A DNA stretch of 57,381 nt, taken from NCBI GenBank assembly GCA_019509785.1, contig JAEKLQ010000055.1:1-57381 (forward strand). Reading direction: 5' to 3'. Position 1 is the first letter of the stretch. Every line of letters starts with the position of its first letter. This document shows positions 15,440 through 35,163 of the stretch, piece by piece. The stretch is from Fibrobacterota bacterium (GTDB lineage: Bacteria; Fibrobacterota; Fibrobacteria; UBA11236). The translations under genes were made by a program, and so were the position numbers. Under the pieces are notes generated by a model. The model saw only the letters and a list, made by a program, of their open reading frames with translations. It was not told where the DNA came from and did not search any database.

Positions 15440-15452
15440 CTGCCAATTCGGC
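15440..15452 (+). promoter_or_regulatory. Half-site of the shared palindrome
   Basis: CTGCCAA followed three bases later by GGC matches the right half of the ~31-bp palindrome (CTGnCAA, 3 nt, GGC) at every fixed position. No left half is visible. It lies about 84 bp upstream of the sigma54 element at 15536. Confidence 0.4.
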
Positions 15453-15535
15453 AAGCCTCCGCGCCTTTCCGGCCCGGTCGTTCCCGTACCGCCCCGGATT
15501 CCGGCCTGAGTCACCCGAATTCCCCGCATTCCCCG

Positions 15536-15551
15536 CGGCACGCTTGTTGCA
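15536..15551 (+). promoter_or_regulatory. Sigma54 promoter of the GyrI-like lipoprotein gene
   Basis: CGGCAC-N5-TTGCA, a near-perfect -24/-12 element with both invariant dinucleotides at the right spacing. The predicted start is near 15562, giving a leader of about 22 nt before the GTG at 15584. Confidence 0.65.
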
Positions 15552-15583
15552 TTAAGGAATAGGGAGTCCGAACGGAGGTGGCC

Positions 15584-16204
15584 GTGCGTTTGATCCTGAT
15601 CCTGACCTTGCTGTTGGCGCCGCTGGGCCTCTCTTGCGCCGAGCCTAGCTTAGGCCATTCGACCGATTCCCCCGCGACCTTCCCGACGGTCCGCGTCGAA
15701 AAGAATCAGCGCATGCTGGTGGTTGTCGCGAAAGGGGATCCTGACCGTAACGGCGACTCCGCGGTGCGGTCCTTGCTCCGGCATTTCTTCCGCGGCGCCG
15801 GCGAAGCGGAGAAGAACGCTTCCGTGCGTCCGCGCGTCCGCTGGGCGCTGCGGTCGCCCTCCATCCCCCGTTCGTCCTGGATAGCGACTTATGCGCTGCC
15901 CGTCTCGGAAAACTTTCCCGAGCCTCCCCGCGGCCCTGCTTCCGTGGTTACCTGGCAATACGGCCTGATCGTAGAAGCCGCTTACTCCGGGCCGTATGCC
16001 AACGCCCAGCCCTCCATCGATTCCCTGAAAGCCTATGCCGCGCGTTCAGGCTTCGCGCTCGTCGGCGGGTTGGAAGAGGAATTCGAACGCGGCCGCGGGA
16101 CGCTTTACCAAGGCCATCCTGAAGCCTACCATACGATTCTCAGGTACCGCATCCACGAGGGGCGCGGAAGCAACGTTGACGAAGCCCCCTTGTCCTCGAA
16201 TTAG
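15584..16204 (+). CDS. GyrI-like (effector-binding) domain lipoprotein
   Basis: 206 residues. The GTG at 15584 is chosen because GGAGG sits five bases upstream and it directly starts the signal (MRLILILTLLL). The signal ends in LGLSC, a plausible lipobox, so the protein is probably an envelope lipoprotein. The C-terminal ~40 residues, with LEEEFERGRGTLYQG then PEAYHTILRYRI, match the end of GyrI-like/SOUL-type small-molecule or haem-binding domains (E-Y-x-GPG-x-Y-x-T-RYPV). These domains are normally cytoplasmic, so an exported copy is unusual. A sigma54 element lies 33-48 bp upstream. The ligand is unknown. Confidence 0.6.
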   Translation: MRLILILTLLLAPLGLSCAEPSLGHSTDSPATFPTVRVEKNQRMLVVVAKGDPDRNGDSAVRSLLRHFFRGAGEAEKNASVRPRVRWALRSPSIPRSSWIATYALPVSENFPEPPRGPASVVTWQYGLIVEAAYSGPYANAQPSIDSLKAYAARSGFALVGGLEEEFERGRGTLYQGHPEAYHTILRYRIHEGRGSNVDEAPLSSN

Positions 16205-16467: not shown

Positions 16468-17844
16468 TTATTCCGAAACGGGCGCTTCCGCGGCGGCTTC
16501 GGCGCCGGCGATGGCTTCCAGCTTCCGATAGATGGTACGGATGCTGATTCCGAGCTCATCCGCCGTCTTGGCCTTGTCCCCGTGATTCTTCTTCAGCGAA
16601 TTGCGGATGACCATCATTTCGATCTCATCCATGGTCATCCCGCTGCCGATGCTCACCTGCATGCCGGCGCCTCCGCCGTTGGAAAGCTCGTCGGGAAGAT
16701 CCTCGGGGGTGATCTGATGCCCCAGGCATAGGATCACGGCGCGCTCGATGGCATTCTCCACCTCGCGCACGTTGCCCGGCCAGGAGTAATTCTCCATGAT
16801 GCGCAGCGCGTCCGCGTTGATGGAGAGGTTCTGCTTCTTGTTCTTCTTGCAGTACTTGGTGATGAAGTACGAGATCAAGGAATGCAAATCCTCGGGCCGC
16901 GCCCGCAAGGGGGGGATCTGCAAGGGGATGACGTTGAGGCGGTAGAACAGGTCTTCGCGGAACAGGCCCAGCTCCACCTGCTTGCGCAGATTCTTGTTGG
17001 TGGCGGCGATGATGCGCACGTCCACCTTCTGGGTGGTGCCGCCCACGGGCGTGGCATCGCCTTCTTGCAGGATACGCAGCAACTTGGGTTGCACCGCCAA
17101 AGGCATCTCGCCGATTTCGTCCAGGAAAATGGAGCCGCCGTTGGCCTCCTGGAAACGGCCCTTCTTATCCTGGTAGGCCCCGGTGAAGGCGCCCTTCTTG
17201 TATCCGAAGAGCTCGGCTTCGAGGAGGTTTTCGGGAATGGCCGCGCAGTTGACCGTGATGAACGGGCGATGGGCCCGCGACGAGTTGGAGAAGATGTAAT
17301 GGGCTAGCACTTCCTTGCCTGTGCCGGACTCGCCCAGGATCAGGATGGTCGCATCGCTGGCGGCGGCCTGGCCGGCGCGCTCGATCAGGGACTTGAAGGC
17401 GCGGTTCTTGCCCCACTCGAAATTGGGCGATTGGTTGAGGCGCAGTTTTTCCTTGAGCAGGAAATTCTCTTCCAGGAGGGCCGTCTTCTCGAAAGCGCGG
17501 TTCACTACCGCGATGATCTCCTGCTTGTTGAAAGGCTTGGGGATGAAATCGTAGGCGCCCTTCTTCATGGCAGTCACGGCATCGTCGATGGTGCCGTGGC
17601 CGGTGATCATGATGATCTGGATGTTGCCGTTGAACTCCTTCACCTTCTCCATGAACTCGAGGCCGTCCATCTTGGGCATCTTCAGATCGGTGATCACCAC
17701 CTGGGGCACATGCTCCTTGATCAGCTCTACGGCCTTTTCGGGCTCCTGGCTGCTGATCAGCTCCATGTCCAAGCCGTTCAACGCGCGACCTAGGGAGTCG
17801 ATGATGTTCTTTTCGTCGTCCAAGATGAGCAATTTTTTCTTCAT
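16468..17844 (-). CDS. NtrC-family sigma54-dependent response regulator
   Basis: 458 residues from the ATG at 17844, which has AAGGA seven bases upstream; longer starts lack a ribosome-binding site. Domains in order: receiver (residues 1-120) with the acidic pair D9/D10, phospho-acceptor D53 (VVITDLKMP) and K103 (IPKPF); AAA+ domain (140-380) with Walker A GESGTGKE (171-178), the sigma54-contact loop GAFTGA (218-223) and Walker B SIFLDEIGE; C-terminal Fis-type helix-turn-helix (DKAKTADELGISIRTIYRKL). All parts needed for phosphorylation-controlled activation of sigma54 promoters are intact. It diverges from the PAS histidine kinase gene, its likely partner. It is the best candidate to bind the palindromes described here. 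Confidence 0.93.
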   Translation of the reverse strand: MKKKLLILDDEKNIIDSLGRALNGLDMELISSQEPEKAVELIKEHVPQVVITDLKMPKMDGLEFMEKVKEFNGNIQIIMITGHGTIDDAVTAMKKGAYDFIPKPFNKQEIIAVVNRAFEKTALLEENFLLKEKLRLNQSPNFEWGKNRAFKSLIERAGQAAASDATILILGESGTGKEVLAHYIFSNSSRAHRPFITVNCAAIPENLLEAELFGYKKGAFTGAYQDKKGRFQEANGGSIFLDEIGEMPLAVQPKLLRILQEGDATPVGGTTQKVDVRIIAATNKNLRKQVELGLFREDLFYRLNVIPLQIPPLRARPEDLHSLISYFITKYCKKNKKQNLSINADALRIMENYSWPGNVREVENAIERAVILCLGHQITPEDLPDELSNGGGAGMQVSIGSGMTMDEIEMMVIRNSLKKNHGDKAKTADELGISIRTIYRKLEAIAGAEAAAEAPVSE

Positions 17845-17971
17845 GCCGAATTCCTTAGTAGCAATGCCCGGACCAATCTTCTCGCTGGGGATAGCGGCCC
17901 CAGGGCCTTCGAAATTCATCATAAGGTTAGAAAGTCTTCACTTTACGGGATTCTGACCCGGATTGGTTTTT

Positions 17972-17984
17972 GCCATAATGGCAG
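17972..17984 (+). promoter_or_regulatory. Left half-site of the shared palindrome between the two-component genes
   Basis: GCC, three bases, then ATGGCAG matches the left half (GCC-N3-TTGnCAG) with one difference. The right half is poor. It lies in the divergent region between the activator and kinase genes and could mediate autoregulation. The same stretch is also the 13-bp palindrome TGCCATAATGGCA. Confidence 0.35.
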
Positions 17985-18031
17985 ATTCCGTGACTTCATG
18001 TCCGGGGGAATCATTGGGTAGATTAGCAATC

Positions 18032-19180
18032 ATGACGCAAGCCAATTCAGCAAAAGCCGCTGCGACCCTGGATACCGCCGCGCTCTTGGACCGGGCATTC
18101 ACCCAAGCCGATTACGCCATTAATATCACCGACACGCAGGGAAAACTCGTCAAGGTGAACAAAGCCTACCTGGATCTGTACAAGTTCGCTAACGAGGCGG
18201 AGGTCCTCGGAAAGACGCAACGCGTCATCCGCTCTCCGCATACTCCCGATGCGGTGTATAAGGAAATGTGGACCACCATTCTCGCGGGCGAGGCATGGCG
18301 CGGCAATCTCTCCAATATCGCCACCGACGGATCCGAGGTTTTCGTCCATCTCACCATTACCCCCGTGCGCGAGGGCAGGGAAATCATCGGCTACATGGGT
18401 TTCTCCATCGATCGCGCGCAACAGGTGCTGCTCGAGAAGGAATTGTTCCATGCCAACAAACTGGTGGTGCTGGCCACCATGGGCGCCGGCCTCGCGCATG
18501 AGCTGAACAATCCGCTCGCCAGCATCTTGCTGGATGCGGAATACCTGAACGATATCTTTCTCGCTCCGCATCAACCCATCGACTGGGCTTCGGCCCGGCA
18601 GGCTTCCAATTCGGTGATCCAAGGCGTGGAACGGATGAAGAAGGTGTTGGAGCATCTGCTGCTGTACTCGCGCAAGGAAGCGGCGCAGCGGTTTTCCACC
18701 TTGACCATGAGCCAGCTCATCGAGGACAGCTTCCTATTCCTCGAACGGCAACTCCGCAGCCGCAGCATCGCCATCGAGCTGGATATCGACGCCGACGTTT
18801 ACGTATCCGGCAACCGTACCCAACTCGAATCCGTGGTACACAACCTGTTGACCAATTCCCGGGACGCCTTCGAAAGCCGCAAGGGCGAGAAGCTCGTCCG
18901 TATCCGCGTCTTCAAGGAAAGGCCGGGCCTGGTGACGATGGAATACACGGACAACGCCGGCGGCATCCCCAAGCCCATCCTCGATCGCATCTTCGAACCT
19001 TTCTTCACCACCAAAAAGGAAAAGGAAGGCACCGGCCTGGGCCTGGCCATCAGCCGGAAGATCGTCGCCGAGCATGGCGGCGCCATCCATTGCGAGTCGA
19101 AAGGCGACACCACCACTTTCTCGATTACCTTGCCTGCATTGGAAGGCCCCGCGCCCGATCCAGGGCTCCTGGAAGACTAG
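18032..19180 (+). CDS. PAS-domain sensor histidine kinase
   Basis: 382 residues from the ATG at 18032. The start is uncertain because there is only a weak ribosome-binding site and the frame is open further upstream. A PAS domain (about residues 20-128; DYAINITDTQGKLVKVNKAY to IGYMGFSIDR) is followed by the dimerisation helix with phospho-accepting His156 (GLAHELNNPL) and the HATPase domain with N-box HNLLTNSRDAF, G1 DNAGGIP and G2 GTGLGLAI. There are no membrane helices, so it is a cytoplasmic sensor. The PAS ligand is unknown; no haem- or flavin-specific residue can be claimed. It is divergently paired with the NtrC-type regulator, its probable target. Confidence 0.92.
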   Translation: MTQANSAKAAATLDTAALLDRAFTQADYAINITDTQGKLVKVNKAYLDLYKFANEAEVLGKTQRVIRSPHTPDAVYKEMWTTILAGEAWRGNLSNIATDGSEVFVHLTITPVREGREIIGYMGFSIDRAQQVLLEKELFHANKLVVLATMGAGLAHELNNPLASILLDAEYLNDIFLAPHQPIDWASARQASNSVIQGVERMKKVLEHLLLYSRKEAAQRFSTLTMSQLIEDSFLFLERQLRSRSIAIELDIDADVYVSGNRTQLESVVHNLLTNSRDAFESRKGEKLVRIRVFKERPGLVTMEYTDNAGGIPKPILDRIFEPFFTTKKEKEGTGLGLAISRKIVAEHGGAIHCESKGDTTTFSITLPALEGPAPDPGLLED

Positions 19181-20052: not shown

Positions 20053-20074
20053 GCCGCCTTCCTAGGGAAGCATG

Positions 20075-20105
20075 GCCAAATTAGCAGGCCATCCGTCAAT
20101 TTGGC
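20075..20105. promoter_or_regulatory. 31-bp palindrome (putative activator site) upstream of uspA
   Basis: Outer GCC at 20075 and GGC at 20103; inner arms TTAGCAG (20081-20087) and CCGTCAA (20093-20099) separated by five bases. It lies ~75 bp upstream of the -24 element at 20181, the usual enhancer distance for NtrC-type activators. The same architecture recurs at 23655, 29641 and 35064. Confidence 0.6.
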
Positions 20106-20180
20106 GCGCGACCCGGCCCTCAGGCGACCAGCCTAGCCGGCACTGAGGCGTTGCCGCCCATCCCCGGACCAGATGATCCC

Positions 20181-22312: not shown

Positions 22313-23506
22313 TCAGCCCCGGAACAGCGCCGCGATGTCCATCCCTTTGGGCATCTCGTTCGGCGGGAAGGCGTAGACCTTGGCATGGCTCTGGATGGCG
22401 TATGCGCAAGCCAGGTTGTCCAAATCCTCGGCGCCCGCTTCGTACGCGTCATACATCCGGACCGCCCCGGTGGCGGGAACCAAGGCTCCCCATTGACCGC
22501 GGCCGCTGGCCAGGAAGAGATGGGTGAGGCGGCGCTGGAAGGCGCAAGGTACCACGTCGGAGTAGCCCGCGGAGGATCGGGCGCGCGCCAGATTCTCCAC
22601 GAACAAGCCCATGGCATGGTTCCGATCCGCGCGTTCCCTTTCGGCCATCAAGGCATTGGCGCGCGCATGCAAATCTTCCTGGGAGCCCAGGGAATCGGCG
22701 TTCCCGGGCAATTCCTCATCGATCAGGTTGGCGCAGGTATTCACCCGCCGGAAAATGGGCAATAGGTAGGCGACCCCGGCCAGCAGCAGAGGCCGGCCGT
22801 CGGCGGGCAGGCGCGCGCGGATGCCGTGATCGATCTGGCGGAAGAAGACCTCGATTTCCTTCTTGGCTTCCTTGCCATCGCCCGGGCCCGAGGCGAAATG
22901 GGCCGAATCGCCTCTGCCATGGCCATGATGCCCGGAAGAGTTGGTATGTACCGATTCCTGGCGTTCCGCCTGCTCGAAGTGCCGGGTCTGGCGGATGTCC
23001 GTATCGATTCCATCCAAGGGGATGGAGCGCATGGCCACCCCGTCGCAGTCCCATAGCTGGACGGCATGTTGGCTCAAGGCCAGCAGATGGAAGCGATCGC
23101 GACCATACACTTGCGACAGGACCCCGTCGAGCCGGAAACGGGTATCGATAGCGGCCCGCGGGGACGGGGCTTTGGGCAAGAGAAGGGCGAGGGTGCGTTC
23201 CCCGGAAGAGAAGAGCGCCAAGCCTTCGCCTGCCAATCGCGCGGCATCGGGCTCGGACAGGAGCGCATCGATGGGCGACAGCAGGTTTTCTTGGACCAAT
23301 ACCGACGCTCCGCGCTCTTCCAATGCGCGCTTGGCTTCGCGACGCAGATCACGCAATTGGATTTTCTCTTCCACGGATTCGCGCCAATTCTTGTCGAAGG
23401 GCAGATACAAAGACAGTCTCCAACCGGCCCCCGACGAGGCCAGGAAGGCCGTATCATTGCCATCTAAACGGGTGAGGAGGGGTAGGCGGGACAAGGTGAG
23501 GGACAT
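22313..23506 (-). CDS. Bacterial eRF1-like (baeRF) protein, possible ribosome-hibernation factor
   Basis: 397 residues. The N-terminal part opens with WRLSLYLPFDKN, the usual start of baeRF domains (SIYLPT). A middle region (residues ~125-300; FHLLALSQHAVQLWDCDG) carries a His/Gly-rich loop near 190-205 (SSGHHGHGRGD), and the C-terminal domain (AYEAGAEDLDNLACAYAIQSHAKVYAF) matches the pelota/eRF1-like end. No GGQ peptidyl-release motif is visible. Bacterial relatives include Balon, a hibernation factor that occupies the ribosomal A site, and mycobacterial Rv2629 of the DosR regulon; that link is from memory and family level only. A sigma54 element and full palindrome lie upstream. Confidence 0.7.
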   Translation of the reverse strand: MSLTLSRLPLLTRLDGNDTAFLASSGAGWRLSLYLPFDKNWRESVEEKIQLRDLRREAKRALEERGASVLVQENLLSPIDALLSEPDAARLAGEGLALFSSGERTLALLLPKAPSPRAAIDTRFRLDGVLSQVYGRDRFHLLALSQHAVQLWDCDGVAMRSIPLDGIDTDIRQTRHFEQAERQESVHTNSSGHHGHGRGDSAHFASGPGDGKEAKKEIEVFFRQIDHGIRARLPADGRPLLLAGVAYLLPIFRRVNTCANLIDEELPGNADSLGSQEDLHARANALMAERERADRNHAMGLFVENLARARSSAGYSDVVPCAFQRRLTHLFLASGRGQWGALVPATGAVRMYDAYEAGAEDLDNLACAYAIQSHAKVYAFPPNEMPKGMDIAALFRG

Positions 23507-23560: not shown

Positions 23561-23654
23561 CGGCCGGCAGGGATGCTGCGGGCCCGATCGGACTGGAACC
23601 CCGCGCGAATCAGGCTGGATTCCCCGGCCGGAAATCTCCCGGCGCCGGGCGCTT

Positions 23655-23685
23655 GCCTACTTGGCAGAAGCCTGATCAATTTGGC
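23655..23685. promoter_or_regulatory. 31-bp palindrome (putative activator site) upstream of the baeRF gene
   Basis: Outer GCC and GGC; inner arms TTGGCAG (23661-23667) and TGATCAA (23673-23679) with a five-base centre. It lies 95 bp upstream of the -24 element on the minus strand. Confidence 0.6.
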
Positions 23686-23691
23686 GCGACA

Positions 23692-28727: not shown

Positions 28728-28763
28728 GGATCGGACGGAATCGCGGTTGCGCCTTCAGGCGCT

Positions 28764-28795
28764 GCCAAAGTTGCCGCGAACCCTGTCAAGCCGTC
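28764..28795. promoter_or_regulatory. Diverged copy of the palindrome upstream of the LOG gene
   Basis: Inner arms TTGCCGC (28771-28777) and CTGTCAA (28783-28789) with a five-base centre; outer GCC is offset by one base and the right outer triplet is GTC. It lies only 34 bp from the -24 element. Confidence 0.35.
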
Positions 28796-28828
28796 ACGAA
28801 TCCGGCCCGCCGGCGGAAAGGATGACCT

Positions 28829-28843
28829 TGGCACGCCCGTTGC
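28829..28843 (+). promoter_or_regulatory. Perfect-consensus sigma54 promoter of the LOG gene
   Basis: TGGCAC-N5-TTGC, identical to the consensus at every fixed position. With C28843 as -12, transcription would start near 28855, only three bases before the ATG at 28858, implying a leaderless mRNA. Confidence 0.7.
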
Positions 28844-28857
28844 CTACCTTATCGGCC

Positions 28858-29595
28858 ATGAAAGCCTACCAGGACCCCGCCTTTCTCGGCGGCGAAGATG
28901 CCCGCGCCGTGCGCATCCTCTCCGAATACCTCGCCCCGCTCGCCGCCTTCCACGAGCATAGGGTGCGCGACACCATCGTATTCTTCGGATCGGCGCGGCA
29001 AGGCGAGGAGGGACCTTTCGCGCGGTATTACCAGGATGCACGCGAACTGGCGCGGCTCGTTACTACTTGGTCCAAGGAGGTTTCCGACGTGTCGGAACGC
29101 TTCTTGGTCTGCTCGGGCGGCGGCGGCGGGATCATGGAAGCCGCCAATCGCGGCGCGGCCGAAGCCGGCGGTCGCACCATCGGACTCAACATCGGCCTGC
29201 CCCATGAGCAGCGTCCCAATGCCTATATCACTCCCGGCCTGGGGTTCGAATTCCACTACTTCTTCATGCGCAAATTGTGGTTCACCCATCTGGCCCGGGC
29301 CATGGTGGTGTTCCCGGGCGGATTCGGCACCCTGGACGAATTGTTCGAGACCTTGACCCTCTCGCAGACCGGCAAGCTCGATCGCTCCGTTCTCGTGATC
29401 CTGTACGGCTCGGAATATTGGCGGGAGATCATCAACTTCGACGCCTTGGTCAAGCACGGGATGATCTCCCCGCGGGACGCCGCCCTGATGCGATTCGCCG
29501 ATGATCCCAAGGAAGCCTTGCGCCTATTGCAAGAGGCCTTGCCGATCTCCCAGGGCGAAGGGGGCCCGGATATCGCCGAATCCGTGGCTACCTGA
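28858..29595 (+). CDS. LOG-family protein (nucleotide phosphoribohydrolase-like)
   Basis: 245 residues. A Rossmann-like core carries the family motifs CSGGGGGIMEAANRGA (GGGxGIMEA) and MVVFPGGFGTLDELFE (PGGxGTxxE). In LOG enzymes these form the active site that releases cytokinin-like bases or hydrolyses nucleotide 5'-monophosphates. An N-terminal ~45-residue extension (YLAPLAAFHEHRV) precedes the core, as in the longer LOG/DprA-like group. No ribosome-binding site is seen before the ATG at 28858, but a perfect sigma54 element ends 14 bases upstream, so a leaderless transcript is likely. The substrate is unknown. Confidence 0.85.
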   Translation: MKAYQDPAFLGGEDARAVRILSEYLAPLAAFHEHRVRDTIVFFGSARQGEEGPFARYYQDARELARLVTTWSKEVSDVSERFLVCSGGGGGIMEAANRGAAEAGGRTIGLNIGLPHEQRPNAYITPGLGFEFHYFFMRKLWFTHLARAMVVFPGGFGTLDELFETLTLSQTGKLDRSVLVILYGSEYWREIINFDALVKHGMISPRDAALMRFADDPKEALRLLQEALPISQGEGGPDIAESVAT

Positions 29596-29640
29596 TGGGA
29601 AAAAGGACCTTCCCCTTGAATCCTACCCTCCTCGGAAACG

Positions 29641-29671
29641 GCCATTTTGACAGCAAGCCTGTCAATTAGTC
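29641..29671. promoter_or_regulatory. 31-bp palindrome (putative activator site) upstream of the sigma-factor gene
   Basis: Perfect inner arms TTGACAG (29647-29653) and CTGTCAA (29659-29665) with a five-base centre; outer triplets GCC and GTC. It lies 66 bp upstream of the -24 element at 29738. Confidence 0.65.
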
Positions 29672-29737
29672 GCGGATCCGCCTTCCTTGGCGGATAGGGA
29701 AACCGCTAATGCGAATGGTCCGCGCCTGCCGGCATCA

Positions 29738-29752
29738 TGGCGCGGCGCTTGC
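29738..29752 (+). promoter_or_regulatory. Sigma54 promoter of the group-2 sigma factor operon
   Basis: TGGCGC-N5-TTGCT, one difference from consensus. Predicted start near 29764, leader about 18 nt with AAGGG as ribosome-binding site. Confidence 0.6.
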
Positions 29753-29781
29753 TTTCTATCCTGCCGAGAAGGGAATCCACC

Positions 29782-30630
29782 ATGAACCGAGAATCCGCCC
29801 GCCGTAGCGCCGCCCTCTTTACCGAAGCCGATCCGTTAATCGCCTATTTCCACGACATCAAGGACACCGGCAAGCTTTCTTCGAAGCAGGAAAAGGAGTT
29901 GGCCAAGCGGATCCAGGAAGGCGACCGGCGAGCCGTCAATGAGTTGGTGCAAGCCAATCTCAAGTTCGTGGTGGCGGTTTGCCGCCAATACGAAAATCGC
30001 GGCCTGCCTTTGATCGATTTGATCAGCGAAGGCAACTTGGGGCTCATCCGGGCGGCCCAGCGTTTCGACGAGAAGCGGGACTGCCGCTTCATCTCTTATG
30101 CCGTATGGTGGATCCGCCAAGCGGTGGTGACCGCCCTGTCCGATCAATCGCGGTCGGTCCGGCTTTCCACGTCCACAACCGGACGCATGCGGCAATTGAC
30201 TTCCGCCTCCCGCAAGCTGGCCCAAAGGCTGGGACGCGAACCCTCGGTGGAAGAGATGGAACTGGAGACGGGAATGCAAGCCGGGAGCATCCGGTCCTAC
30301 CTGCGTTTGCTCGATCATTCCATCTCCCTGGAAAGCCTGCCGGAAGGCCTGGAAGGCGGCGCTTCCGATTCGATGGAGGCCTTCACGGAACGCTTCCACG
30401 CCAAGCGGGCCATGGATCAACTGCTCAAGGGGCTTAGCGCGCGCGAGCGCGAAGTGCTCGATCTCTACTTCGGATTGCGCCACGGCGAGGCCTGGAACCT
30501 GCCGCAGATGGCGCGCCGCCTGGGGCTCTCCAAGGAGCGGGTGCGCCAGATCAAGGAAAAGGCCATCGGCAAGCTCAAGGTGCTCCTCATGCTCAATGCC
30601 AAATACCCGTGCGCCACGATCGGCATCTAG
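29782..30630 (+). CDS. Group-2 sigma70-family RNA polymerase sigma factor (RpoD/RpoS-like)
   Basis: 282 residues, without region 1.1 and the long non-conserved insert of housekeeping RpoD. Region 1.2 (DPLIAYFHDI), region 2 (ANLKFVVAVCRQY, LIDLISEGNLGLIRAAQRFD, FISYAVWWIRQAV), region 3 (LAQRLGREPSVEEME) and region 4 (LSAREREVLDLYFGL, then LGLSKERVRQIKEKAI) are all present. It directs core polymerase to a set of stress promoters. It is followed after 19 bp by a hemerythrin gene and then a beta-CASP nuclease gene, probably one operon. The upstream sigma54 element and full palindrome suggest a sigma54-to-sigma70 cascade. Confidence 0.93.
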   Translation: MNRESARRSAALFTEADPLIAYFHDIKDTGKLSSKQEKELAKRIQEGDRRAVNELVQANLKFVVAVCRQYENRGLPLIDLISEGNLGLIRAAQRFDEKRDCRFISYAVWWIRQAVVTALSDQSRSVRLSTSTTGRMRQLTSASRKLAQRLGREPSVEEMELETGMQAGSIRSYLRLLDHSISLESLPEGLEGGASDSMEAFTERFHAKRAMDQLLKGLSAREREVLDLYFGLRHGEAWNLPQMARRLGLSKERVRQIKEKAIGKLKVLLMLNAKYPCATIGI

Positions 30631-30649
30631 AGACCGGAAGAGGAAACCC

Positions 30650-31384
30650 ATGAATCCCATCGCAACCTTGACCTTGCGCGAACTCATCCGCAGCCGCCCC
30701 CTGGGCATCGAGATATTGGAAGACATGGCGGGCGGAACCTTTTGGGACAGGATGGATCTGACCCTGTCGGAGTTCTGCCGCGAGTCGGGGCTGGACGCCA
30801 ATACGGTACAGCATCGCCTGGCGGGCATGCCCGAAAACCAGGCTCGCCAGGATTGGCCCAACCTCCCCCTCTTCTGCCTGATCGATCACCTGACCACCGG
30901 GCATCGCGGCTTCCGGGCGCGCGATTTGCCCGAGGTCCATCGCCTGTTGGAATCCTTGCGTATGGATTTCCCCGCGGGGCAAGCGGCCTTGCAGTCGCTC
31001 CTCGGGGAGTTCACCGCCTTCCGCCAGGAGTTCTCCTGGCATATGGAAGAAGAAGAGGAATTCCTCTTCCCCAAGATCCTACGCACCGAAGCCAGCCTGC
31101 GCCATCCCGAACTTTATCCTGAGGTATTCAAAGGATCGATCGGCATGTTCAGTTCCCGGCAGCTCCAGGAGCCTGAACATCGTTTCCACCAAATCGTGAC
31201 CGATCTCTCCGAGCGCCTGCGCGGTTTGGTTTCCGACGCCTTGCATCTGGCGACGGCCAAGAGCGCCCTTTCCGCCATGCAAGGTTACGAGGCCCGCCTC
31301 AAGGCGCACGTCTACATGGAATGCGAAATCCTGTTCCCGAGGGCGCTGGTGATGGAAGCGTCCTTGTTGCAACGCAACCCATGA
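30650..31384 (+). CDS. Hemerythrin HHE / RIC-like di-iron protein (copy 2)
   Basis: 244 residues. The N-terminus TLTLRELIRSRPLGIEILEDM is close to the RIC/YtfE N-terminal domain (TLxELVxxxPxAxxIxE), though the usual Cys pair is absent. The HHE four-helix domain supplies His and Glu ligands in CLIDHLTTGHRGF, FSWHMEEEEEFLFP, EPEHRFHQI and LKAHVYMECEILFP. GAGGAAA precedes the ATG at 30650. It lies between the sigma-factor gene and the beta-CASP gene with gaps of 19 and 10 bp. It probably repairs or protects iron centres under low oxygen or nitrosative stress. It is a diverged paralogue of the protein at 19282. Confidence 0.8.
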   Translation: MNPIATLTLRELIRSRPLGIEILEDMAGGTFWDRMDLTLSEFCRESGLDANTVQHRLAGMPENQARQDWPNLPLFCLIDHLTTGHRGFRARDLPEVHRLLESLRMDFPAGQAALQSLLGEFTAFRQEFSWHMEEEEEFLFPKILRTEASLRHPELYPEVFKGSIGMFSSRQLQEPEHRFHQIVTDLSERLRGLVSDALHLATAKSALSAMQGYEARLKAHVYMECEILFPRALVMEASLLQRNP

Positions 31385-31394
31385 AGGGGATAAC

Positions 31395-32762
31395 TTGCGA
31401 CTGACCTTCCTGGGAGGCGCGGGCACGGTCACGGGCTCCAAATACCTTTTGCAGGACGGGGCAGCCCGTCTCCTGATCGATTGCGGCCTGTTCCAGGGAC
31501 TTAAGCAACTGCGCTTGAGAAACCGGGCGCCGCTCCCTTTCGATCCCGCATCCATAGGAGCGGTCGTCCTGACCCACGCGCACCTCGATCATTCCGGTTA
31601 CCTACCGCGGCTGGTCGCGCAAGGGTTCCCTGGCCGGGTGCATTGCACCGCGGCCACCCGCGACCTGGCCCGCATCCTGCTTCTGGACAGCGCCGCCTTG
31701 CAGGAAGAAGAAGCCAAGCATGCCGCGCGGCACGGTTGGTCCAAGCATAATCCGCCGCTACCGTTGTATACGATAGGGCAGGCGCGCGCCTGCGACTCCC
31801 GCTTCCAACCGGCGGATTGGGAGAATCCCGTACGCCTCCCCGAAGGATGGGTGATCCGCTTCCGCAAGGCGGGACATATCCTGGGCGCGGCTTCGGTGTT
31901 GGTGGAGCGAGGCGGCAGGACCGTGCTTTTCTCCGGGGATCTGGGCCGGCCGAATGACCCCATCCTTCCCCCGCCCGCTCCCTGCCCGGCCGCCGATTGG
32001 ATGGTGGTGGAGTCGACCTATGGGGATCGCCGCCATGCGCAAATCGATCCGGCCGACGCCCTGGCGGACCTGGCGCGGAAGGTCTTCGCCCGCGGGGGAG
32101 TACTGCTCGTTCCCTCCTTCGCCGTGGGGCGCACGCAAACCATCCTCCATCTCCTGTGGCGCTTGCGCAAGGCCGGCAAATTGCCCGCCGCTCCCGTTTT
32201 CGTCGACAGCCCCATGGCCACCGACGTGACCCACCTTTACATGCGGCATCCCGCCGACCATAAATTGGGGTCGGAACTGGCCCGGGAAGTATTCGGGTCC
32301 GCCAACTACGTGCAAACCCCGGAAGAATCGAAGCGGCTTTCCGCCCGTAAAGGCCCCATGATCCTGATCAGCGCCAGCGGCATGGCTACGGGGGGCCGCA
32401 TCCTGCACCATTTACGGGCCTTCGCCCCGCATCCCGAAAACGCCGTGCTTCTGGCCGGTTTCCAGGCCGAAGGCACGCGCGGCGCCCAGTTGGCCCACGG
32501 GGCGAAGAGCATCAAGATCTTCGGGGAACAGGTTCCCGTGAACGCGGAGATCGCCATTCTGCCCAACGCTTCGGCTCATGCCGATGCGGATGAGATCCTG
32601 GCCTGGCTGAAAACCGCCCCCCGCCCGCCGGAACGGATATTCGTCACCCACGGGGAGCCGGGGGCGTCCGAAGCCTTGCGCGGGCGCATCGCCGCCGAGC
32701 TGGGCTGGAACGCGCGCGTTCCGGCTCTGGAGGAAACCGCGGAACCGGTTCCGGAAACCTGA
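31395..32762 (+). CDS. Metallo-beta-lactamase fold, beta-CASP RNA-processing exonuclease
   Basis: 455 residues. The zinc-binding motif LTHAHLDHSGYLP (HxHxDH) is near residue 58; a later His is in KAGHILGAAS, and the beta-CASP region includes STYGDR, SFAVGRTQ and the C-terminal VTHGE. The closing RMMBL-type segment FAPHPENAVLLAGFQAEGTRG is typical of YsiJ/CPSF-73-like nucleases. It would cut or trim RNA in the cytoplasm. The TTG start at 31395 follows AAGGGG; no ATG in frame is available nearby. It is the third gene of the sigma-factor/hemerythrin operon. Related genes occur in low-oxygen regulons of Pseudomonas, by recollection. Confidence 0.88.
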   Translation: MRLTFLGGAGTVTGSKYLLQDGAARLLIDCGLFQGLKQLRLRNRAPLPFDPASIGAVVLTHAHLDHSGYLPRLVAQGFPGRVHCTAATRDLARILLLDSAALQEEEAKHAARHGWSKHNPPLPLYTIGQARACDSRFQPADWENPVRLPEGWVIRFRKAGHILGAASVLVERGGRTVLFSGDLGRPNDPILPPPAPCPAADWMVVESTYGDRRHAQIDPADALADLARKVFARGGVLLVPSFAVGRTQTILHLLWRLRKAGKLPAAPVFVDSPMATDVTHLYMRHPADHKLGSELAREVFGSANYVQTPEESKRLSARKGPMILISASGMATGGRILHHLRAFAPHPENAVLLAGFQAEGTRGAQLAHGAKSIKIFGEQVPVNAEIAILPNASAHADADEILAWLKTAPRPPERIFVTHGEPGASEALRGRIAAELGWNARVPALEETAEPVPET

Positions 32763-33568: not shown

Positions 33569-34960
33569 TTAGATAGCCTTGGAAAACCGCCCGACCGTTC
33601 CCTGGGCGGTGAGCGGATCGAGGGCCGCGGCGGCCTGGCGTACGAACAACCATCCCTCTTCGGAAAGCTTCAGCACCCCGTTTTCCCAGGAGACCCAGCC
33701 TTCGCCCAGCATCGGCTCGATGCGCGCCCGGCAGCCCTGGATGTATTCCCCGATGGCTTGGGGCGTGAGATCGACATCGTCGCAGGCGGTGGCGAAATCG
33801 ACCCGGCCGTAGCACATGAGCGCGTCGATGCAAGCCTTTACGAGAACGTCCTGCTCCTCCATGAAATAGGTCTTCTCCAGCGGGAACTGCTTGGCTTCCA
33901 CCGCGCGCAGGTATTCGTCCAGGCCCTTCAGGTTCTGGCCGTAACCGCGCGCGAATTGCGAAATCGCCGAAGCGCCGAAAGCGTAGACCTGGCCGGTGTG
34001 GCGGCGCGAACTATAGCCTTGGAAATTCCGTTGCAGTTGGCCGGCGGCCTTGGCGCGCGCCAGCTCATCGGTGGTTTTCACGAAATGGTCCATGCCGATG
34101 GACTCGAAACCCGCGTCCTTGAAAAAACGCCGGGTGGCCAAGGCGATTTCCAGGCGCATATGCGCGTCCGGCATGGGGTATTTCTCAAGCTGACTCTGAT
34201 GGCCTTTGACCCAGGGAACGTGGGCGTACCCGAAGACGGATACCCGGTCCGCTCCCGCGGCCACGGCGGTCTCCAAGGTGGACTCGAAGGAGTCCGGCGT
34301 CTGATGAGGAAGCCCGTAGATGAGATCAAGGTTCACGCTGGCGATGCCGGCATCGTGGGCGACCGCCACCAACTCGGCGATAGGAATGCGGGGGACGCGC
34401 CGCTCCACCGCTTGCAATACTTCGAGCCGGAAATCCTGCACCCCGAAGGATAGCCGGTTGAATCCCATGGCGGCCATCTCCCGGATGCGCGCAGGGTTGA
34501 GCAGGCTGGGATCGCATTCCGCGGCGATCTCCGCGTCCGGGGCCAGGAACCATTGGCGCCGTACGCGATCCATCATGTCGCGCAGACGATCGAGGGGCAT
34601 GGCGTTGGGCGTGCCGCCCCCGAAATGCACTTGGGTCACCTTGCGGCGGGGATCCACATGGCGCGCCATCGCGTCCATCTCCTCGCCGATCGCGTCCAGG
34701 TAGTCGTGCACCTGCCCCGCGGGCGTCCCGATCTCGGTATGGCATCCGCAGAACAGGCAGCGATGCGGGCAGAAAGGGATGTGGAAGTAGAGAGAGACGT
34801 GGGCCGGGCCGCGCCGATCGGAATCGGCCAACAGCGCGGCGTAGCGCGCGGGCGAGTCGTACGGGACGAACGAGGTGGCCGGCGGGTACGACGTATAGCG
34901 CGGGGCGGGACGATCGTACTTGGATATGTCTTCAACGGAGAGGGAGCGTGCCTGGATCAT
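33569..34960 (-). CDS. hemN: Oxygen-independent coproporphyrinogen III oxidase
   Basis: 463 residues from the ATG at 34960; a longer frame exists to 35089 but its first 43 residues look non-coding. Radical-SAM Cys cluster CPHRCLFCGC (CxxxCxxC plus the extra Cys of true HemN), the GGGTPN SAM motif, and RYTSYPPATSF at the N-terminus as in E. coli HemN. It decarboxylates coproporphyrinogen III in haem synthesis without O2. It diverges from the cbb3 operon, a common low-oxygen pairing. A sigma54 element abuts the start codon and a palindrome lies ~80 bp further up. Confidence 0.93.
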   Translation of the reverse strand: MIQARSLSVEDISKYDRPAPRYTSYPPATSFVPYDSPARYAALLADSDRRGPAHVSLYFHIPFCPHRCLFCGCHTEIGTPAGQVHDYLDAIGEEMDAMARHVDPRRKVTQVHFGGGTPNAMPLDRLRDMMDRVRRQWFLAPDAEIAAECDPSLLNPARIREMAAMGFNRLSFGVQDFRLEVLQAVERRVPRIPIAELVAVAHDAGIASVNLDLIYGLPHQTPDSFESTLETAVAAGADRVSVFGYAHVPWVKGHQSQLEKYPMPDAHMRLEIALATRRFFKDAGFESIGMDHFVKTTDELARAKAAGQLQRNFQGYSSRRHTGQVYAFGASAISQFARGYGQNLKGLDEYLRAVEAKQFPLEKTYFMEEQDVLVKACIDALMCYGRVDFATACDDVDLTPQAIGEYIQGCRARIEPMLGEGWVSWENGVLKLSEEGWLFVRQAAAALDPLTAQGTVGRFSKAI

Positions 34961-34973
34961 GAGGGGACGAAAC

Positions 34974-34988
34974 GCAAAGGGCATGCCG
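34974..34988 (-). promoter_or_regulatory. Candidate sigma54 promoter of hemN
   Basis: Minus strand: CGGCAT-N5-TTGC, with GG and GC at the right spacing. The predicted start is about two bases before the ATG at 34960, again implying a leaderless mRNA; no ribosome-binding site is present there, which fits. Confidence 0.45.
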
Positions 34989-35063
34989 GGAAGGGAGAAC
35001 CCGTGAGCGCGCGGTAATCGAATGCGACGGCCCGAAATCAGCCGGACTGCCTGTGCCACGCGG

Positions 35064-35095
35064 GACTTTTTGACAAGGGGGCCTGGCATAATGGC
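35064..35095. promoter_or_regulatory. Palindrome (6-nt centre) in the hemN/cbb3 divergent region
   Basis: Inner arms TTGACAA (35070-35076) and CTGGCAT (35083-35089), outer GAC and GGC, centre of six bases instead of five. It could serve hemN (79 bp from its -24 element) and the cbb3 operon on the other side. A second small palindrome, TTCAG-AC-CTGAA, lies at 35101-35112. Confidence 0.5.
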
Positions 35096-35163
35096 AAATC
35101 TTCAGACCTGAAAAACGGGCCCTCCGGACGGTAATTTCTCATCCAGACATCGAGGATCGCATT

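Follow-up and report, generated by a model that had tools for sequence, protein, structure and literature searches.

Is the group-2 sigma factor gene on this stretch of Fibrobacterota DNA controlled by sigma-54, and could it pass a sigma-54 signal on to a second set of promoters? The stretch that was analyzed, here called the window, is the 57,381-nucleotide contig C55, which belongs to a draft genome of 5.4 Mb (G000). A literature search for work on sigma factors or hypoxia in Fibrobacterota gave no relevant result. A preliminary description had placed the sigma gene ahead of hemerythrin and nuclease genes in a single operon, and the gene order and the gaps of 19 and 10 bp between the genes agree with this:

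29782..30630, plus strand: group-2 (RpoD/RpoS-like) sigma factor, 282 aa, regions 1.2-4 (Pfam Sigma70_r1_2, r2, r3 and r4; tree)
30650..31384, plus strand: hemerythrin-domain protein, remotely related to the YtfE/RIC proteins of iron-sulphur repair (domain and model matches; ATG at 30650)
31395..32762, plus strand: MBL/beta-CASP/RMMBL RNase-like nuclease, the last clear gene of the operon (domain matches)

The window also contains hemN and genes for a cbb3 oxidase, a heavy-metal P-type ATPase, a universal stress protein, an aldolase, LOG, baeRF, a cation ATPase and a second hemerythrin-type protein, and much of this gene block is kept in four of five congeners.

The assignment of the sigma protein to group 2 was upheld by Pfam, which finds regions 1.2, 2, 3 and 4; the protein is RpoD-like and distinct from the primary sigma factor, and a separate long RpoD-like frame is present at G000:C87. 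Against the RpoS equivalog model TIGR02394, which was built for proteobacterial RpoS, the protein scored 197.5 bits and did not reach the cut-off of 378.7. Orthologues were found in only three of the six genomes of the genus, where they form one clade (support 100/99); outside, a contig scan with the sigma protein returned sigma factors of 38-44% identity and no orthologue. The sigma gene of one congener is at zero tree distance from the record 'Fibrobacteres bacterium isolate RYN_349'. The genome as a whole has 15 sigma-70-family matches in 5.4 Mb, mostly short RpoD/RpoS-like paralogues that reflect an expansion in the genus, while about three sigma-70-family matches are present in the sister genus g2 and in most genomes of family f3.

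The promoter that had been proposed for the sigma gene, TGGCGC-N5-TTGCT, was located immediately upstream of it, with GG and GC at the correct -24/-12 spacing:

29738..29753, plus strand: sigma-54 promoter TGGCGC-GGCGC-TTGCT, TGGCGCGGCGCTTGCT (GG/GC at sigma-54 spacing; same position in orthologues)

The first ATG of the mechanically called frame, at 29737, overlaps this promoter, so that the usable start is the ATG at 29782, in agreement with the start of the orthologue in genome G005. The promoter ends 28 bp upstream of this ATG, and its position predicts a transcription start near 29764. A high score is in itself not rare, as three sigma-54-like sites of at least 16 bits were seen in the window versus 0.4 expected, and the case for this promoter is therefore one of position and conservation, not of score. 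A sigma-54 site of at least 12 bits precedes all three sigma orthologues (12.6-16.4 bits), compared to only two of the 39 paralogous sigma genes. The genome also encodes rpoN.

Two other sets of sigma genes have conserved upstream sequences of their own. In two species, the start of another sigma-70-family gene, L180/L181 (G003:C4 and G002:C86), is preceded by TGGCATTTTCTTTGCC at a distance of about 30 bp, which makes this gene a candidate for a second sigma-54 to sigma-70 link. The orthologous group-2 sigma genes L149, L157, L159, L160 and L163, from five species, have a common upstream element of about 25 bp resembling CATGGCCCG-N2-3-TTTTGATTA. This element was ruled out as a sigma-54 site since it has no -12 GC; it is perhaps a conserved sigma-specific promoter.

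Upstream of the sigma-54 promoter lies the palindrome TTGACAG-CAAGC-CTGTCAA (TTGACAGCAAGCCTGTCAA), which had been described as the best one. It is indeed exact, and it occurs once in the window (expected 0.00) and once in the 5.4-Mb genome. We dropped it as the operator when a genome-wide search gave no second copy, and a different binding unit emerged from a symmetric 13-bp matrix derived from 40 sigma-54-like promoters in the islands of five related genomes. The refined matrix converged on TGCCA-NNN-TGGCA, and its sites come in pairs 20-21 bp apart, mostly ~75-130 bp upstream of sigma-54 promoters. The three sigma-gene promoters were excluded from the matrix counts; the motif seed was picked by eye after every upstream region, including those of the sigma genes, had been viewed, so that only the counts were held out. 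Some divergent promoters have sites in common, and the training set is accordingly smaller than it appears. At the sigma gene, the matrix gives the following:

29640..29652, no strand: enhancer site 1, GGCCATTTTGACA (13.7 bits; sigma promoters excluded from the matrix counts)
29660..29672, no strand: enhancer site 2, TGTCAATTAGTCG (8.4 bits; its centre 20 bp from that of site 1)
29647..29665, no strand: palindrome, re-read with the 13-bp model as the right half of site 1 joined to the left half of site 2

The arms of the palindrome match because each site is itself palindromic and the inner halves of two such sites tend to be complementary. The palindrome thus stands as a real, exact and unique sequence and falls as a binding unit, being the junction of two tandem sites; the predicted operator is the 13-bp site in two copies. 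The pair scored 22.1, which none of 2000 shuffles equalled, and with these sites at 29640-29672 the promoter has, at the sequence level, the upstream enhancer sites of a sigma-54-dependent promoter. Tandem sites were found upstream of two of the three sigma orthologues and of none of the 39 paralogues in the six genomes of the genus (best 7.3). The G005 orthologue combines a sigma-54 promoter with sites of 14.7 and 12.5 bits, 20 bp apart (pair score 27.2; 0/2000 shuffles as high), while the G001 orthologue has a sigma-54 promoter but no good tandem pair (7.8; 60/2000 shuffles).

When the tandem pairs of the 57-kb window are ranked by score, each of the top seven lies upstream of a gene in this block, the gene for an NtrC-type regulator included:

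17971..18003, no strand: tandem sites at the regulator, pair score 26.9, the best in the window (pair scan; also at the regulator in relatives)
17860..17875, minus strand: sigma-54-like promoter of the regulator (sigma-54 site scan)
35063..35096, no strand: tandem sites between hemN (33569-35089) and the block leading to the cbb3 oxidase (pair scan)
20074..20106, no strand: tandem sites upstream of the universal stress protein and aldolase genes (pair scan)
15441..15474, no strand: tandem sites upstream of the sigma-54 promoter 15536-15551 of gene 15578-16204, which has no known function (pair and promoter scans)
28763..28796, no strand: tandem sites (21 bp) upstream of the LOG sigma-54 promoter 28829-28844 (pair and promoter scans)
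23654..23686, no strand: tandem sites upstream of the sigma-54 promoter 23560-23545 of the baeRF gene 22313-23506 (pair and promoter scans)

By these common sites, the sigma gene would be one target of a sigma-54-dependent low-oxygen or redox regulon. The LOG promoter is very near the in-frame ATG at 28858, which would make its transcript almost leaderless unless a later start is used. The baeRF gene, which encodes an archaeo-eukaryotic release-factor-like domain, has a sigma-54 promoter and tandem sites in G004 and G005 as well; within the low-oxygen regulon, its product may act in translation or on the ribosome. The size of the regulon was judged by genome pattern searches only. A composite pattern of sigma-54 promoter plus site had six matches in G000 versus two for a reversed-pattern control, with higher numbers in G005 and G004, and a double-site pattern with one mismatch allowed had 10 matches per strand versus 12 in the control. 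By these control counts, pattern searches were too noisy to define the regulon outside the island.

The regulator gene that carries the best pair is divergent from a kinase gene:

16468..17844, minus strand: NtrC-type response regulator with receiver, GAFTGA AAA+ and Fis HTH domains, the proposed activator (domain matches; GAFTGA at residue 218)
17963..19180, plus strand: PAS histidine kinase, the proposed sensor (PAS, HisKA and HATPase only)

The true start of the kinase is probably a downstream ATG. Four congeners have the regulator at 83-89% identity; the values are 72-73% for the sister genus and 62% for a different family of the order. Within the genus, a tandem pair adjoins the regulator in each of the five genomes that encode it, and such pairs are also present in the sister genus and in the other family. 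Genome G003 is without a close orthologue of the regulator, and there the close hemerythrin and sigma orthologues are absent too. This position and co-occurrence suggest that the regulator binds the tandem sites. The PAS domain of the kinase is similar to NifL, Aer and FixL-fusion entries; together with the presence of hemN and the cbb3 oxidase among the putative targets, this similarity points to low oxygen or redox state as the likely signal.

How the sigma gene came to its place can be approached through the other species. Genomes G002 and G004, which do not have this sigma gene, carry the same tandem sites and promoter on the hemerythrin gene, and the layouts are alike in alignment. In G001 the order is sigma, LOG and then hemerythrin, the last with its own sigma-54 promoter. 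The simplest reading of these arrangements is that the sigma gene was either inserted at, or lost from, the head of the operon. In a more far-reaching scenario, a little short of even in our estimate, a sigma-54/NtrC low-oxygen regulon gained a dedicated group-2 sigma factor heading a pre-existing hemerythrin-nuclease operon, and a one-step response would thereby have become a feed-forward cascade of two sigma factors, present in some species of the genus and absent from others. The likeness of the hemerythrin product to the YtfE/RIC di-iron repair proteins is remote only: the RIC model matches over most of its length, at 59 bits versus a cut-off of 204.7.

Promoter placement, tandem sites in common with the local NtrC-type regulon, the design of the orthologous upstream regions and the presence of rpoN thus bear out sigma-54 control of the sigma gene, which is well supported at the sequence level. 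In the mechanism that we consider likely, the operon is driven by sigma-54 and the regulator at 16468-17844 acting at the tandem sites, within a low-oxygen or redox regulon, and the sigma protein extends the response. Two dimers of the regulator would most likely bind at 29640-29672, both on the same face of the DNA, and remodel the closed complex at 29738-29753, so that RNA polymerase with sigma-54 would transcribe the sigma, hemerythrin and nuclease genes as an operon. Under the PAS kinase, the same regulator would also drive its own gene, hemN and the cbb3 oxidase, the universal stress protein, LOG and baeRF; with the sigma operon, these would make up a survival regulon for low-oxygen or redox conditions. 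The sigma protein would then most likely carry the response to further promoters as a feed-forward second step; its intact regions 2-4 make it plausible that it acts on a second set of promoters.

It is this last step that an alternative reading questions. The sigma gene could be under the sigma-54 regulator yet form no true cascade, its product overlapping with the housekeeping sigma factor or the paralogues, or the gene being a passenger in the hemerythrin-nuclease operon. In its favour, the genome has 15 sigma-70-family matches, the sigma protein lacks part of a region 3.2 stretch that is present in the paralogues, and the same type of promoter directly drives the hemerythrin gene in G002 and G004, without any sigma gene. 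Nevertheless, three species that have diverged to 51-66% identity have all kept the sigma gene as an intact frame, with regions 2.4 and 4.2 conserved, and we regard this alternative as unlikely.

The binding steps of the preferred mechanism can be questioned as well. Some other sigma-54 activator, with its gene elsewhere in the genome, might bind the tandem sites: G000 has several other NtrC-type regulators, two further members of the family being found at E<=1e-100 and about 100 candidates in a loose first look. Strong sites at the regulator's own gene in 5/5 genomes, their occurrence there in relatives beyond the genus, and the joint absence of the close regulator, hemerythrin and sigma orthologues in G003 speak against this, and make it improbable. 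That the palindrome at 29647-29665 is instead the operator of some other regulator, and the sigma-54 match a chance occurrence in GC-rich DNA, would suit a palindrome that is perfect and genome-unique and a window in which about 0.4 sites of that quality are expected. This we hold to be very improbable, as the palindrome has no second copy, the 13-bp tandem model accounts for it and for six other promoter regions in the window, and an orthologue retains the 13-bp sites but not TTGACAG/CTGTCAA.

There are a few known settings in which a cascade runs from sigma-54 to a sigma-70-family factor, namely Borrelia RpoS and flagellar FliA. In Geobacter sulfurreducens, the best-scoring sigma-54 promoter precedes an operon carrying fliA (PMC2725144), a precedent that makes sigma-54 control of another sigma factor a known kind of circuit. 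The likeness is that a sigma-54 promoter lies ahead of an operon with a sigma-70-family gene; however, the Geobacter FliA is a flagellar sigma factor in a flagellar operon, whereas the gene described here encodes a group-2 sigma factor in a putative low-oxygen/stress operon (PMC2725144). Another instance, in a low-oxygen regulon not described before, would show how a second sigma layer joins an existing regulon. The sister species with the same promoter and without the sigma gene make such a comparison possible, and the operator model supplies candidate targets for a regulator without known function.

The analogy with Borrelia, drawn in the preliminary description, holds for the wiring and fails for the identity of the sigma factor. 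In Borrelia burgdorferi, an NtrC-type regulator (Rrp2) and sigma-54 (RpoN) drive a sigma-70-family gene, rpoS, according to the portions of the published accounts used here (PMC2940757, PMC3037356). The wiring predicted here from sequence is alike. In contrast, the present sigma factor is not RpoS by the curated model, its score lying below the family cut-off, and, relative to what those accounts describe, its gene has tandem enhancer sites in common with a putative low-oxygen regulon and is the first gene of an operon that also carries the hemerythrin and nuclease genes. In gene content, the closer parallel is the NmpRSTU/NmpR oxygen-utilization regulon of Myxococcus xanthus, for which the sections consulted report an NtrC-type regulator, sigma-54, paired enhancer sites and autoregulation, with cbb3 oxidase, P-type ATPase, hemN, hemerythrin and universal stress protein among the targets (PMC11841059). 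The targets predicted here by tandem sites are similar: the hemN/cbb3 block, the universal stress protein and the sigma-hemerythrin operon. The operators differ, TGCCA-N3-TGGCA here versus GCGCA-N5-TGCGC for NmpR, as do the gaps between paired sites (7 bp versus 14-15) and the sensors, an adjacent PAS kinase here and a protoglobin/hybrid kinase relay in the NmpR system; the putative regulon here includes a sigma gene, while none is reported for the NmpR regulon in those sections (PMC11841059). The system thus resembles Borrelia in wiring and Myxococcus NmpR in gene content, and is a member of neither.
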